This document shows positions 33,793 to 40,745 of a stretch of DNA of 64,000 nucleotides, piece by piece. Origin of the DNA: Thalassobius sp. I31.1 (GTDB taxonomy: Bacteria; Pseudomonadota; Alphaproteobacteria; Rhodobacterales; Rhodobacteraceae); contig NZ_PWAA01000042.1 in the NCBI RefSeq assembly GCF_003031585.1, positions 62,001 through 126,000 on the forward strand, read 5' to 3'. The stretch's first letter is position 1. The number at the start of each line of letters is the position of its first letter. The position numbers and the translations under genes are program-made. Under the pieces are notes generated by a model. It had not been told where the DNA came from, did no database searches, and was given only the letters and a program-made list of their open reading frames with translations.

Positions 33793-35796
33793 TCAGTTCC
33801 CAGGCAGTTCCATCGTGGTGTTCCGGCTGCCTTTGACATATTGCAGACTGTTCTGTCCGATCGCCTGAATACGTCCGCCATCAATGCGATCCCCCACTTC
33901 CACGCGGCGATAGCGGCCATTGCGGGTGCGCATCAATGCACGTCTTGTGCCGCCGGTGTTATAGATGCCGACAAGGGAAAGACGGTTCAGTCGGATCGCA
34001 TTGCGGATCGTGGCCTGGCTGGCGACGGATGCGCTGCTTGGGATGCTGGGGCTGGAAGAACGCGCACCGGAAGAAGAGCTGCTGGCAGAGGCTGTGGAGG
34101 CGGTGCCACCGCTGTTGCTGCTTTGGGTTTGGGCTGCATCGCGGGCGGCCTGCGCAGCCGCGACGACGGCGGCAAAATCATTCGGACGTGTTGAAGGGAC
34201 GATGGACGTCGCCACGGCAAATTCGGTTGGGGCCAGATCCACATCCGGCGCGCTCTGGGCGGATTCAGGGCGCAGTTCAGGTTTGCGCTGCGCCAGTTCC
34301 GCGCGGGTCAGCCCGCCGTAGATGTTGCGTTCATGGTTCTGGATCAGATCAGTTGGACGCAAACGTGGTTTAAAGCCTGCAAAGTCGGGCTGTTCTTCGG
34401 CTTCTTCCGTTGCAGCTTCTGCATCGGTTTCCGTTGTCGTTGGCTCATCCGTTGGACGTGGGGGGATCAGATAATCCGGCCGTCCGGCAAAGATCCGGAT
34501 ACCTTCGGCGTTTTCTGTCCCTTCCGGGGTTGGAACGACCAGCCCCAGTTCATTTACAGCAAAAACCGTGCCGGGGGTGGCAGGGTTGTTAATCTGTGGC
34601 ATAGGCCCGCCGGCGGTGCCCGTATTCAGGATGGGCAGAGCCAGAGCATCAAAGGATGGTGTGGCCGGGTCATGGGAGGGGATGTAAAGATTTCCAGCCC
34701 CTCGGGTGCCCGCTGCTGCGGTTGAAACATCCACGCGGCCATTGGCATTATCAGTTTGCCCTACATCCGGCGGCAGGATCCAGATTTCATTCTCAGCGTA
34801 GAAGTCTTCTGCATCTTCCTGTGTCGGGATAACCGGGGCAGGTTGTTCTGTTTCAACGGCCTGAACCGGCGTTTCCGTTGCTGTTTCGGTCTCTGCGTCG
34901 GTTGTGGCGACTTCTTCAGCTACCGGTGTGGGCGTTGATGGCGCAGATTGACTGAGCCACAGGGCCGCCAATACACCGGCTGCGATGGCGCCACCGCCCA
35001 GCAGGGCAATTTTACCCATGCCTGGCCCGGACTTGTCCGGTTCTGGCTGCAAAGATTGCACACCGGCAAGCGCGATGGCCTCTTGTTTTTCCTCATGCGC
35101 CTGATCTGGTTTCTCAGTCTCAGTCTCAGTCTCAGTCTCAGTCTCAGTCTCAGTCTCAGTGGCGGAGGGGGCGTCCGATACGATTGCTTCTGCCGGAATG
35201 GTGGCAAGTGTTTTCACTGGCGTTGATGCCGCGTCCATTTCTGGTGTGACGATAACAAGGGGCTGGTCTTCACGCTCAATATAGTCCTCATCCAGCATAA
35301 AGCCCGCAGCACAGGGGGCTTCGCCAAAGAAAAGTTCGCGTGTAAAGCCGGATCCGTTTTCTGGCACAGCAGCAAAAGACACCGGGTTAAAGCGGTGTTC
35401 CGTCGCGAAAGATTCGGCTTCTGTCAGGGTTTCCCGGGCAATTGCGGCAATATGCAACGTGTCGCCATCCCGCTGCCAGTCCAGCGCGAGATCCTGAATG
35501 TCATAAGGTGTCAGACCTTCAAGGGAGGTTTCAACAAATTTGCGTTCTTCGCTGCGGCTGTTCAGCGGGTCCGGGCTGGTCGCTGATGTATAGAGTATCT
35601 GTGTGTCAGGAATGATCAGCTTGCAGATCACGGCACCGGGTTCAAGTGCGGCGGCTTTGTCACGCATGTCTGAAAGCTGCTGCGCGAACTCAGAGCTTTC
35701 TGGCTGCGCTTCCGCGATGACCTGCCAGCCCCCGGAAACGCGGTGCAGCAAAAGAATGCCGCTATGGGTCAGGTTCAGCGCAAATCCGGGTTTCAT
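33793..35796 (-). CDS. PilM/GspL-like plus PilP-like membrane protein
   Basis: A 667-residue single-pass protein. The first about 170 residues (NLTHSGILLLHRVSGGWQVI; then LPETYPE-like strands) resemble the actin-like cytoplasmic domain of GspL/PilM. A Thr-Glu repeat, (TE)8 at about 212-228, precedes the membrane helix IALLGGGAIAAGVLAALWLS (about 258-280). A long Pro/Thr/Glu-rich periplasmic region follows, and the last about 75 residues (LSLVGIYNTGGTRRALMRT; YRRVEVGDRIDGGRIQAIG) look like a PilP/GspC HR domain. No other pilus or type II secretion gene is near. Rhodobacteraceae keep this gene next to cobS; earlier annotations by other names exist. The two domain calls are inference by fold pattern. 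Confidence 0.72.
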   Translation of the reverse strand: MKPGFALNLTHSGILLLHRVSGGWQVIAEAQPESSEFAQQLSDMRDKAAALEPGAVICKLIIPDTQILYTSATSPDPLNSRSEERKFVETSLEGLTPYDIQDLALDWQRDGDTLHIAAIARETLTEAESFATEHRFNPVSFAAVPENGSGFTRELFFGEAPCAAGFMLDEDYIEREDQPLVIVTPEMDAASTPVKTLATIPAEAIVSDAPSATETETETETETETETEKPDQAHEEKQEAIALAGVQSLQPEPDKSGPGMGKIALLGGGAIAAGVLAALWLSQSAPSTPTPVAEEVATTDAETETATETPVQAVETEQPAPVIPTQEDAEDFYAENEIWILPPDVGQTDNANGRVDVSTAAAGTRGAGNLYIPSHDPATPSFDALALPILNTGTAGGPMPQINNPATPGTVFAVNELGLVVPTPEGTENAEGIRIFAGRPDYLIPPRPTDEPTTTETDAEAATEEAEEQPDFAGFKPRLRPTDLIQNHERNIYGGLTRAELAQRKPELRPESAQSAPDVDLAPTEFAVATSIVPSTRPNDFAAVVAAAQAARDAAQTQSSNSGGTASTASASSSSSGARSSSPSIPSSASVASQATIRNAIRLNRLSLVGIYNTGGTRRALMRTRNGRYRRVEVGDRIDGGRIQAIGQNSLQYVKGSRNTTMELPGN
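35113..35160 (+). repeat. Perfect hexanucleotide repeat (CTCAGT)x8
   Basis: Eight perfect copies of CTCAGT in frame inside the preceding gene; on the coding strand each unit is ACTGAG, Thr-Glu. Gain or loss of units would not shift frame. Confidence 0.97.
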
Positions 35797-38176: not shown

Positions 38177-38416
38177 TGATTTCTCCGGCAGTGTGCAGCT
38201 TCGCCGGGCTATCACATGACAAAGGGAACTGTCTAAGGAAACGACAGCAAAATGTTTGCGAAATCTGATTTGTTGCGATGAGAACGCATCCTGAGGCAGG
38301 GAAGAGGAAACAATCCGGGAGCGCTGACGCAACCTCAGAATCAAGATGTGTGGGAAATCCGGAGTTCTGAAGTTGCTTCGGCCAGGACAGGGCCTTCAGC
38401 GTCAAACCATACGAAT

Positions 38417-38502
38417 GTGGTTGCGCCCAAACAAACAGGCGCAACCACGAATGTGATGACTTAACTCGTAAACACAGTACTGATAACACTCACCGCTACT
38501 GT
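38417..38502 (-). ncRNA. Predicted small structured transcript, module A
   Basis: Predicted on the minus strand from about 38502 (after a CATAAA -10-like hexamer, 38514-38509) to a terminal stem at 38417-38448. Close to its 5' end is a block nearly identical to module B: CAGTAGCGGTGAGTGTTA followed by CAGTACTG and GTGTTTA. CAGTA can pair with TACTG across a 17-base loop. The 3' stem is an 11-bp perfect helix (GTGGTTGCGCC with GGCGCAACCAC). No U-run follows the stem, so the 3' end is unknown. An in-frame stop in the GTG reading frame argues against a peptide. Start and end are inferred. Confidence 0.45.
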
Positions 38503-38537
38503 AGAATCTTTATGCCATAGCACCGCGTGGCGGCGCA

Positions 38538-38553
38538 TACCCCAGATTGGGTA
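38538..38553. promoter_or_regulatory. Regulator-binding inverted repeat, module A
   Basis: TACCCCAGATTGGGTA, a 7-2-7 inverted repeat with one mismatch in the half-sites. It sits 43.5 bases upstream of the predicted start of module A, the position for a class II activator overlapping the -35 region. Its half-site is similar to the NarL-type heptamer TACYYMT. Confidence 0.5.
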
Positions 38554-38673
38554 AAAGGTTTATAATTCGCTAATTATGGTCGCCACCCGGAAGGGGGGCG
38601 TTTATCCGACGACAGAGAACAGGCCTGTGTTGATCCCGGACCCTTCCAATCTGAACAGCACTTCAAAGTAATT

Positions 38674-38758
38674 GTGGCCGTGCCCGAAAAACGGGCACGA
38701 CCACAGAAAAGACGATATTACTCATAAACACAGCACTGTTAACACTCACCGCTACTGC
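38674..38758 (-). ncRNA. Predicted small structured transcript, module B
   Basis: The second copy, exactly 256 bases from module A at the stem end and at the binding repeat. Minus-strand start predicted near 38758 after a CAATAT -10-like hexamer. The conserved block CAGTAGCGGTGAGTGTTAAC is followed by AGTGCTGTG; CAGTA pairs with TGCTG using a U-G pair. The 3' stem at 38674-38704 is GTGGTCGTGCCCG with CGGGCACGGCCAC (one G-U). Compared with module A, two base pairs in the stem have changed on both strands. A GTG-start frame of 28 codons (38663-38749) with AAGGGG 8 bases upstream runs through it, but is not conserved in module A. Confidence 0.5.
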
Positions 38759-38793
38759 CCCTTGATATTGCCATGACTCGGCTTTCCGGCGCG

Positions 38794-38809
38794 TACCCCA
38801 TATGGGGTA
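38794..38809. promoter_or_regulatory. Regulator-binding palindrome, module B
   Basis: TACCCCATATGGGGTA, a perfect 16-bp palindrome with a 7-2-7 layout. Centre lies 52.5 bases from the GTG codon, exactly as in module A. It is 12 bases beyond the stop of the regulator gene. Confidence 0.55.
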
Positions 38810-38821
38810 AAGTTGCGGGTT

Positions 38822-40621
38822 TTATCTGAACTGGCCAATCTTTTTCAGCACTTTGTCCCAGTGGCTGTAAATCAACAGCTGTCCGGCACCTTCAATAAGT
38901 TCATAGCTGACCCAGGGATGATCCTGGAAGAAGGGTTCAATGATCTCCATCGTGGCCTGGCCATCCAGTGTGCCATTGATGAAATGTACGGGCAGCTTAC
39001 CTTCGAGGGCGCAGAATTCGGCATGCCAGCCCCTTATTTCCTCGGAAATTGTCCGTGTGAAAGCCTTGTGGGCGGAATGTGTGTCTGACAGGCAGATCTG
39101 AATGCCTGTTGTCACAGCTTCCCAGATTTCCGGGTCGTTGAACTGTTCCTTATCCGCCGGTGAACGATGGTAGACATGTTCCAGGAATTTACGTTGCCCG
39201 TATTTGCGCGCCATAAGAAAGCCGGTTTTGACTGTGAAGGTCAGCAGATGCGGCGTGTAGCGTGCGCAAACCAGAAGGAAACGCTGCCAGAGATCCATGT
39301 GATCATATTCCCCTGGAGAATCAGGGGGCGGCGTACCCGCAACCGCAATCAGGCTTTGCATGACGCCCGGGTAATACTTTTCGATATGGGCGGCGAAACG
39401 CACATCCGCGCACAGCGAGACCACATGGCATTTTTCGATGCTTTCGGCCTTCAGTACATGCATGATGTCATCCACAACGCCGCGGGTGAAATCGGTTTTG
39501 TCAGGCAGCGGGCTGCTGTTGCCATAACCCGCCCGAATGGGGGTTATGATGCGAATCCCGGCCTTCCGGGCAGCTTGTTCACCGGATTTGGGCCAGCGGG
39601 ACATGCCGATTTCAACATGAAGGTGAATGACTGGGACGCCATTTGGGTCGCCCCAGGTCAGATAATCCAGCCGTCTCCCGTCCGGGGTGTTGATTGTATG
39701 CAGTTTTGCGGCACCGGAAGCGTCCGGATTACCTGTGTAACCCCGGCTCCAGGCCTCTGTTGTCTGCTGGCCCGTTACAGCAAAGCCGGTCATATCCATC
39801 ATGGAAAGAATAAGGCGGATCAGTTCCACCTGAGATCGCGTTTCTGTTTTTGCCAGAATGGATTTGATCTGGGCGCGAATGGTATCGACAGATCGCCCGC
39901 GCTGTTCCGCAATATCTTTGATTGAACAGCATTCAATCAGCATACGTACGATTTCAACTTCGGTTTGGGTGAAGCTGAATGCTTCTGTCAGGATGCCGTC
40001 AAACGCAGGGGGCCATGCCAGTTCTGAGGTCGCAACAACAAGGCACTGGGCGCCATCCTGCAGTGTGCGACGCCGGATGTGGAACACGATGAAATGCCCG
40101 CAGTCTGAAGATCGCACACGGAAGAGCGATATGTTTGAACCGCGTCCGGCCAGCATATTCCGCATTTGTTTCAGAAGGTTGGGCAGGTCATCCTGGTCTA
40201 CAGGCAAAGCCGCAGCCGGTGCACCTTCAGTGACGCCAAGTGACGCTTGCGCCCCGGAATTTGCGGTGCCGATCGTCAGATCGCTGTCGATCAGGAAAGC
40301 CGCTGCCATGTCGAAATATTCGATCAGGGTCTGGCGTTCATTCGGGGGTTCCAGCGTATTGGCATAGCGTTCGAGAAACCGGTCAGCACGGGCAATATGT
40401 TCTTCCATCGCACTGTCATTCAACAGCACGATTTTCTGCTGATCCGCAGTCGCACGCAATGGATTGACCAATGTATTCCATTGCTCAAGCATTTCAGAAG
40501 CGCGCCCGGGGTCCATGGCTACTTCATACAATCGATCGATCAGCACATCGCGACCGCGTTCAGGCGGGGCGGTTGTGCCGTTTTTTGTCTTACTCACTAT
40601 GTCCACACTTCCGATAAGCAT
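38822..40621 (-). CDS. LuxR/NarL-type regulator with degenerate alpha/beta-hydrolase domain
   Basis: A 599-residue cytoplasmic protein with three parts: an N-terminal sensor-like region (1-205, possibly PAS-like), a NarL-type helix-turn-helix in the middle (about 212-270: FTQTEVEIVRMLIECCSIKD then RSVDTIRAQIKSILAKTETR), and a C-terminal alpha/beta-hydrolase fold (about 310-599). The nucleophile elbow reads VVSLCADVRFA, so Cys404 replaces Ser and both Gly are lost; the usual terminal GHL is GQL (Gln581), so the catalytic His is missing. The domain is thus likely to sense a ligand. A central HTH is unusual. The start 40621 is tentative; GTG codons just downstream (about 40606 and 40600) are also possible. 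Two tandem promoter modules lie directly downstream. Confidence 0.85.
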   Translation of the reverse strand: MLIGSVDIVSKTKNGTTAPPERGRDVLIDRLYEVAMDPGRASEMLEQWNTLVNPLRATADQQKIVLLNDSAMEEHIARADRFLERYANTLEPPNERQTLIEYFDMAAAFLIDSDLTIGTANSGAQASLGVTEGAPAAALPVDQDDLPNLLKQMRNMLAGRGSNISLFRVRSSDCGHFIVFHIRRRTLQDGAQCLVVATSELAWPPAFDGILTEAFSFTQTEVEIVRMLIECCSIKDIAEQRGRSVDTIRAQIKSILAKTETRSQVELIRLILSMMDMTGFAVTGQQTTEAWSRGYTGNPDASGAAKLHTINTPDGRRLDYLTWGDPNGVPVIHLHVEIGMSRWPKSGEQAARKAGIRIITPIRAGYGNSSPLPDKTDFTRGVVDDIMHVLKAESIEKCHVVSLCADVRFAAHIEKYYPGVMQSLIAVAGTPPPDSPGEYDHMDLWQRFLLVCARYTPHLLTFTVKTGFLMARKYGQRKFLEHVYHRSPADKEQFNDPEIWEAVTTGIQICLSDTHSAHKAFTRTISEEIRGWHAEFCALEGKLPVHFINGTLDGQATMEIIEPFFQDHPWVSYELIEGAGQLLIYSHWDKVLKKIGQFR

Positions 40622-40745
40622 CGAAATTTGCTGCGGGCCTGTCCTGCCACGCTGCATTTTTTGTTTATCAGGGAAACAATTTTATCGAAAGTTAAACTCT
40701 GAACAATGCGGTTCACTGTTGTCAGAGAGCCATAAGAGTTCTGTG

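Follow-up and report, generated by a model that had tools for sequence, protein, structure and literature searches.

A LuxR-type regulator with a hydrolase-like domain and its adjoining palindromic promoter: a candidate small RNA switch in Rhodobacteraceae

Results

The locus and its two tandem modules

We analysed a 64,000-nucleotide stretch of contig NZ_PWAA01000042.1 from Thalassobius sp. I31.1 (below, the window), where an earlier note, made from the sequence alone, had proposed that a regulator with a helix-turn-helix (HTH) and a hydrolase-like domain activates two sibling small RNAs (sRNAs). The genome belongs to the Rhodobacteraceae and lies near Paenihalocynthiibacter styelae; the regulators of the two are 98% identical. 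The minus strand of the window carries gatB (Pfam GatB), the regulator gene, two tandem modules and a DUF4177-like gene, in this order (Table 1). Each module consists of a 16-bp palindrome TACCC[CA]A-N2-TGGGGTA, a promoter-like stretch and a predicted structured RNA of 94 nucleotides (nt) that ends in a long stem.

All coordinates given by the earlier note were verified on the minus strand. The near-identical block CAGTAGCGGTGAGTG occurs exactly at 38757-38743 and 38501-38487, and the arithmetic placing each palindrome centre 52.5 bases from the first G of the same GTG is correct. Other details needed adjustment. The 7-2-7 inverted repeat is perfect in the first module, but imperfect in the second. 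The module spacing of 256 holds in the window, but is 254 in P. styelae. Both modules do have a terminal stem, but the hairpin of module 2 lacks a good T-run and is not listed as terminator-like.

The degenerate pattern TACCCNANNTNGGGTA with at most one mismatch has two matches in the window, against 0.04 expected, and the two palindromes of the window are the only sites within one mismatch in the 3.73-Mb genome. The 15-mer CAGTAGCGGTGAGTG is unremarkable in the window at up to three mismatches (2 found, 1.19 expected); at up to two mismatches the whole genome has six matches, namely the two exact window copies and four with two mismatches elsewhere.

Table 1. Features of the regulator locus and its candidate modules (window coordinates)
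Feature	Position	Strand	Remarks
Regulator gene	38822..40597	-	591 amino acids from GTG; alternative upstream ATG at 40657 possible
Palindrome 1 TACCCCATATGGGGTA	38794..38809	-	Predicted regulator-binding site of module 1; conserved site in 48/49 orthologs
-10-like CAATAT, module 1	38765..38770	-	From sequence; position compared with orthologs
Predicted sRNA 1, 94 nt	38666..38759	-	5' hairpin with GCGGTGAGTG, linker, 14-bp terminator stem 38705-38673; fold z -5.4
Palindrome 2 TACCCAATCTGGGGTA	38538..38553	-	Predicted binding site of module 2; one mismatch from perfect
-10-like CATAAA, module 2	38509..38514	-	From sequence
Predicted sRNA 2, 94 nt, sibling of sRNA 1	38410..38503	-	13-bp stem 38448-38416, weak T-run; fold z -4.5
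DUF4177-like gene	from ~38176 downwards	-	Pfam 22.7 bits, under the cut-off of 25

Linkage of the palindrome to the regulator

A profile of the regulator matched 89 of 394 Rhodobacteraceae genomes at E <= 1e-30. The analysis is based on 49 close orthologs from 47 genera: 48 found by this search at E <= 2.7e-170, and the one of G002 (here and below, G-numbers denote genomes and L-numbers loci of the comparison set). The cut was placed at the gap between 2.7e-170 and 5.6e-141, chosen after the list had been seen. Flanks were examined for 69 of the 74 matches at E <= 7.8e-67, and for G002; this left out G121, G163, the second match in G353, and G033 and G010, whose best sites, scanned separately, have three and five mismatches. 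A sample of 289 genomes from the class yielded the window's own regulator as the sole close ortholog, and distant matches in two genomes.

The palindrome, with up to three mismatches, was found between -20 and +100 nt of the regulator stop codon in 48 of the 49 orthologs, its position relative to the gene end ranging from 17 nt upstream to 81 nt downstream. In the control, 197 permuted palindromes of the same composition hit 0.5 loci on average and six at most. Homologous modules, whose absence beside homologous regulators the earlier note had named as counting against it, are thus present. Among 21 loci below the ortholog cut, two have a palindrome-like site (at most three mismatches, within 300 nt), at +19 in G077 and at +248 in G278.

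The linkage is not only conserved but near-exclusive. At most one mismatch being allowed, the 49 genomes contain 36 sites (in 30 genomes), 31 of them adjoining the regulator and five elsewhere, against 21 sites for the reversed pattern. The exact pattern occurs in 12 of 295 genomes, in 11 of the 12 beside the regulator, and the reversed exact pattern occurs in three. Since nearly all close sites adjoin the regulator and those elsewhere fall below the reversed-control count, the sequences give no sign of a wider regulon acting through the palindrome. No palindrome with up to two mismatches was found within or upstream of the 49 regulator genes, in stretches of up to 1500 nt, and therefore autoregulation through that site is not expected. 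The genome G063 has an exact palindrome at C106:23323-23338 (L083, L115) and its sole regulator match (E 1.8e-78) on another contig; this may be a degraded or displaced system.

Candidate promoters

In the alignment of 48 modules the palindrome runs directly into A-T-G, these three bases being present in 47, 44 and 47 modules at offsets 15-17. They belong to a putative -35 box, ATGACG or ATGCGN, that is poor compared with the consensus TTGACR. The dinucleotide TA, the beginning of a TANNNT-like -10 box, is found at offset 38 in 24 modules (background 0.027 per offset, binomial p ~4e-25) and at offsets 37-39 in 32 modules, whereas 4.7 are expected. ATT is observed at offsets 50-52 in 22 modules (approximately 0.9 expected per offset). 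The start of transcription was predicted at 50 (+/-2) bases past the first palindrome base, which corresponds to 38759 and 38503 in the window. The spacer of this candidate promoter is 17 nt, and the palindrome is centred at about -42.5 from the predicted start, near the position of a class II activator. The class II-like layout suggested earlier is therefore retained, as candidate promoter elements keep fixed offsets over the 48 modules.

The -10-like hexamers of the window itself (CAATAT and CATAAA, offsets 39-44) exist where they had been proposed, but they lack the initial TA, stand approximately 1 nt off the TA position of half of the orthologs, and are weaker than the family consensus. 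No match to the sigma-54 pattern (up to two mismatches) was observed in 38410-38820, and the whole window has 104 matches, with 104.6 expected. The modules show a -35/-10-like layout, sigma-70-like in look and not sigma-54.

Structure of the predicted RNAs

Both predicted RNAs of the window fold far better than shuffled sequence (Table 1). The sibling terminator stems differ at five of 13 pairs, and all 13 are still paired, two of them by double compensatory changes. Of 50 modules, 21 have a strong hairpin followed by T's no more than 115 nt from the predicted start, compared with one among 588 mostly coding control windows taken from these loci; the score limit of 30 was set after the scores of an earlier scan had been seen. 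The stem begins 50-58 nt past the predicted start in 18 of the 21. These 21 modules are the two of the window, the two of P. styelae and 17 others, of which 15 fall in the tree clade that holds all 11 loci with ppk2 as the neighbour. In the lineage where recN is the neighbour the RNA seems longer, judging from terminator prediction only.

This latter lineage provides a different structure. In 11 of its genera there is a common hairpin with an invariant GTGAGTGG loop. The alignment left out five of 16 places of the motif: the two window modules, L063 (variant motif), and L090 and L051 (motif far downstream). In the stem, 81% of cells are paired and all 11 pairs have two-sided changes, which is reached by six of 500 shuffles; the covariation score is 0.739, whereas shuffles score 0.264 and slid controls no more than 0.296. 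The arms pair better with each other than permuted arms do (none of 5000 permutations is as good). The covariance model of this hairpin, R1, recovers its 11 members at the regulator and misses the plasmid locus L185. When applied to 198 genomes, it has matches in 13: eight strong ones, all at the regulator and all from its own alignment, and five weak ones (E 0.0015-0.0066) located elsewhere.

The element GGTGAGTG occurs in the predicted hairpins of both groups, near +10 in the window and at +57 to +69 elsewhere. As R1 does not match the window modules, the likeness does not establish that the window RNAs and the 11-genus hairpin are homologous; we rejected this homology as unproven, and RNA homology across the family is likewise unproven. 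A scan with Rfam found nothing in the window, and one tRNA only in 20 loci.

By eye, the recN-neighbour loci L045, L049, L051, L054, L055-L057 and L059 have in common a terminal stem whose core is GGCAATGNCGC...TATT...GCG-like and which lies immediately ahead of the converging recN. This stem may represent a second RNA motif, or else a shared bidirectional terminator.

A pair of modules with close matches to the palindrome is present in two of the 49 loci only, in the window genome (G000) and in P. styelae (G001). In G417 a second site has three mismatches and is weak. Thus the single module is the common unit among loci with a site.

The regulator protein

The regulator has a LuxR/GerE HTH at residues 208-262, a possible PAS-like N-terminus and a C-terminal alpha/beta-hydrolase-like domain. 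The domain order read from the sequence by the earlier note is supported: the GerE match of the window protein (1.3e-5, 25.2 bits) is above the Pfam cut-off of 23.5, and a profile of eight orthologs matched hydrolases among solved structures, the best at 2e-16. GerE and Abhydrolase_1 were each observed in all eight orthologs (Pfam, E <= 1), Abhydrolase_1 at best with 1.9e-6; in the window protein the latter match is weak (0.022, below the Pfam cut-off). PAS_4 was found in two of the eight, at best with 1.6e-4. The Pfam matches of these orthologs include neither a receiver domain nor a LysR domain, GerE being found instead, and models of the RcsB, NarL and FixJ type are among the weak profile matches of the HTH. 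An AlphaFold2 model, from an alignment of three sequences, had a mean predicted local distance difference test score of 39, too poor to reveal folds.

The catalytic residues of the hydrolase-like domain have largely been replaced. The nucleophile position is occupied by G in 40 of the 49 orthologs, C in three, A in two, and L, M, T and D in one each, and never by serine; the three cysteines are those of the Halocynthiibacter-group proteins, including that of the window. The catalytic acid D is kept in 47 of the 49. The position of the catalytic histidine holds glutamine in 45 and histidine in none. Because catalytic serine and histidine are absent across the orthologs, the domain most likely serves as a ligand pocket and not as an enzyme.

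A second group of 13 regulators with a hydrolase-like domain (L111-L114, L116-L124) has methionine or leucine at the nucleophile position and glutamine in place of the histidine. No palindrome with up to three mismatches was found from -30 to +450 nt of their stop codons; they may have dedicated sites of their own.

Neighbouring genes, alternative outputs and a plasmid copy

The downstream neighbour is a convergent recN in 20 of the 49 loci, ppk2 in 11, a DUF4177-like gene in four (three Halocynthiibacter-group loci and L095), a CBU_0592-family gene in three, with none of these detected in 12; L095 has both a DUF4177-like and a CBU_0592 gene. The identities of RecN, PPK2 and GatB were checked on one member each. 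Since the flanking genes vary, the regulator would have its conserved partner in the promoter and the product driven by it, rather than in a flanking gene.

In L085, L095 and L100 an open reading frame (ORF) for a CBU_0592-family membrane protein (E 9e-16 to 2e-21) is located 18-31 nt past the predicted start, behind the same palindrome promoter. The output of the circuit seems exchangeable, because such an ORF follows the promoter in three branches (G332, G098, G296) and was not detected in their tree neighbours G398 and G245, G275, G247.

On a plasmid of Aliiroseovarius sp. M344, a regulator with 44% identity, annotated as a LuxR C-terminal-related transcriptional regulator, is followed by 562 nt in which the PLSDB tables, which are incomplete, list no gene. 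The palindrome TACCCTATGTGGGGTA begins 4 nt past the stop codon; this locus has two further sites, one with two mismatches inside the upstream Hint-domain gene and one with three mismatches. Compared with G398, identity is 76-82% in the RNA region and 58% in the promoter stretch. As a cytochrome c gene further down is common to both loci, the plasmid does not provide an independent context. For a second plasmid regulator, that of Paracoccus liaowanqingii with 25% identity, no site with up to four mismatches was found. The cytochrome c gene (Pfam), which we take to be norC-like, lies about 920-1450 nt past the regulator stop codon in L067 and at 7427-7707 in L185, the plasmid locus; a link of this branch to denitrification is possible.

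Two further observations concern neighbouring sequence. A motif resembling the FNR consensus recurs by eye before ppk2, downstream of the module and separate from its promoter, in L064 (TTGATGCGGATCAA), L053, L066, L070, L086 and L089. In the window, a 667-amino-acid ORF at 33793-35796 on the minus strand contains a Glu-Thr repeat run (ETETET...), a simple-sequence codon stretch.

Candidate targets and small proteins

The complement of the window loop, TAACACTCACCGC, with up to two mismatches has 24+31 matches in its own genome, which include the two RNAs; the reversed control has 38+42, so there is no excess. The exact complement of the 11-genus loop, CCACTCACCT, has 23 matches in eight of the 11 genomes. 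Eight of these are the RNA itself; the 15 others (16 for the reversed pattern, again no excess) share no common gene according to blastp. One of them, in G310, sits immediately ahead of an ORF's ribosome-binding region. The CBU_0592 gene of the window's own genome shows no special pairing with the window RNAs.

A small protein encoded by the window modules has no support, as all three differences between the modules in the first ten codons of the GTG frame change amino acids. A common ORF from the ATG after the palindrome was rejected too: 24 of 42 loci have a stop within 20 codons, and the ten ATG frames of at least 40 codons show no mutual similarity.

Discussion

The most probable explanation of these observations, to which we assign a probability of about three in four, is a dedicated regulator-sRNA switch, with tandem sibling RNAs in the window genome and P. 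styelae. We infer from the sequences that the regulator would bind the palindrome and activate rather than repress, that it senses a ligand, that the transcripts exist, and that they act in trans. In the proposed mechanism, the regulator would bind a small hydrophobic ligand in the dead hydrolase domain and/or the PAS-like domain, and the ligand would make the regulator dimer adopt a palindrome-binding form. A dimer on TACCCCA-N2-TGGGGTA, some 42 bases upstream of the start, would abut the poor -35 box and recruit RNA polymerase, as in class II activation. The palindrome would be almost the sole site of the regulator in the genome. In most cases a short structured RNA would be transcribed, and it would regulate mRNAs in trans by base pairing. 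A tandem duplication of the module in the window genome and P. styelae would have placed the siblings under matching control sites, and may raise the RNA dosage or split the targets. The activation of two siblings proposed by the earlier note is thus strongly supported by the comparison, through the linkage and the class II-like promoter, but the pair itself is confined to two loci.

A number of observations weigh against this switch. One ortholog locus, G327, has no palindrome, and 19 of the 49 genomes have no site at all at up to one mismatch. No strong terminator was found within 115 nt in 29 of the 50 modules. The orthologs as a whole show no recognisable conservation of RNA sequence, and R1 finds no match in the window RNAs. 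No conserved target emerged from the loop-complement searches. Frames of at least 60 codons follow the ATG after the palindrome in seven of 42 loci (10 and 2 of 48 in the other frames), and in three of the 49 loci the promoter is followed by a membrane-protein ORF instead of an evident sRNA. Finally, the position of the control site would also fit repression.

Indeed, a site abutting or overlapping the -35 box is a classic position for a repressor too, and the regulator may repress at the palindrome, with the RNAs made upon its release; the location of the site around the end of the regulator gene agrees with this as well. We consider it improbable, however, given that a poor -35 box with a kept -10 box is as expected of an activated promoter, and that the regulator genes have no palindrome of their own through which a repressor could control itself. 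Another explanation, rather unlikely in our view, is that the modules serve the same-strand gene that follows them, as its 5' leader or attenuator, so that the regulator controls the DUF4177-like gene and not free sRNAs. Such a gene does lie downstream in the Halocynthiibacter-group loci and L095, the T-run of the module 2 hairpin is weak, and in L085, L095 and L100 the promoter faces a CBU_0592-family ORF. However, the downstream gene varies from locus to locus, in the recN group the RNA and the neighbouring gene face each other, and the strong hairpin 50-58 nt past the start closes 18 of the 50 modules.

It is very improbable that the palindromes and repeats belong to a repeat family, terminate the regulator gene at the RNA level or arose by chance, the modules not being transcribed units. 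The palindrome does follow the stop codon and could form a short hairpin, and module 2 duplicates module 1. However, no T-run follows the palindrome in the consensus, fewer sites lie away from the regulator than the control has, and both the promoter elements at fixed offsets and the covarying RNA stems would be left without explanation.

Regulators that drive sRNAs are known, even with tandem siblings. In Vibrio, the genes of VqmA and VqmR adjoin, and VqmA is not known to have a hydrolase-like domain. VqmA is described as a PAS and HTH receptor-transcription factor that senses DPO, dimerises through PAS and activates an sRNA gene via a palindromic GG-N6-CC promoter element (PMC8284805). The likeness would lie in an HTH regulator and a candidate sRNA under a palindromic promoter, with activation predicted from sequence here and PAS_4 in two of eight orthologs only; the palindrome and the hydrolase-like domain differ, as presumably does the RNA sequence. 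The other close parallel is VtlR/LsrB with AbcR1/AbcR2 of the Rhizobiales. According to PMC7486931, the gene of the LysR-type VtlR of Agrobacterium tumefaciens is directly upstream of two tandem homologous sRNAs, of which AbcR1 alone depends on VtlR and is directly activated by it, and VtlR also activates the sRNA VrsA and a small-protein gene. The tandem sibling genes directly downstream are alike (here in G000 and G001, as candidates), whereas the regulator here is LuxR/GerE-type, the box is another one, and both modules have the same site.

The comparison with Qrr made by the earlier note is a poor one. The Qrr genes of Vibrio, controlled by LuxO, are scattered and sigma-54-dependent; one regulator with several sibling sRNAs is the common trait, whereas here the promoters look sigma-70-like and the modules are in tandem beside the regulator. 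GerE regulators of the NarL/RcsB type share the HTH family, and the 7-2-7 geometry of the site is typical of NarL; the protein described here differs by an extra hydrolase-like domain and by having no receiver domain among its matches. Thus the regulator-driven sRNA is of a known kind, and differs from VtlR by regulator family and from VqmA by the hydrolase-like domain. This particular regulator and RNA seem to be new: no description of either was found in an open-access library, including parts of two sRNA surveys (PMC4809877, PMC5107571), subscription papers and supplementary sRNA lists being outside the scope of the search.

Tentatively, and with somewhat less than an even chance of being right, the system may be a receptor circuit with a single target that extends across the family. 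Its receptor would be a LuxR protein with a pseudo-hydrolase domain (close orthologs in 48 of 394 sampled genomes), with about one site per genome and a fast-evolving, exchangeable product, represented by several unrelated-looking small RNAs or by the CBU_0592 membrane protein. If so, receptor and promoter have been conserved while the output was replaced, and this could be a metabolite- or quorum-sensing system unlike the known ones of roseobacters.

A likely ligand-binding pseudo-enzyme is linked to a predicted small RNA over approximately 47 genera of an abundant family, and the promoter layout predicts the RNA start in any genome of these genera. If confirmed, it would be a VqmA-VqmR-like circuit in roseobacters and their relatives, and a natural experiment in the turnover of the output of a fixed circuit.

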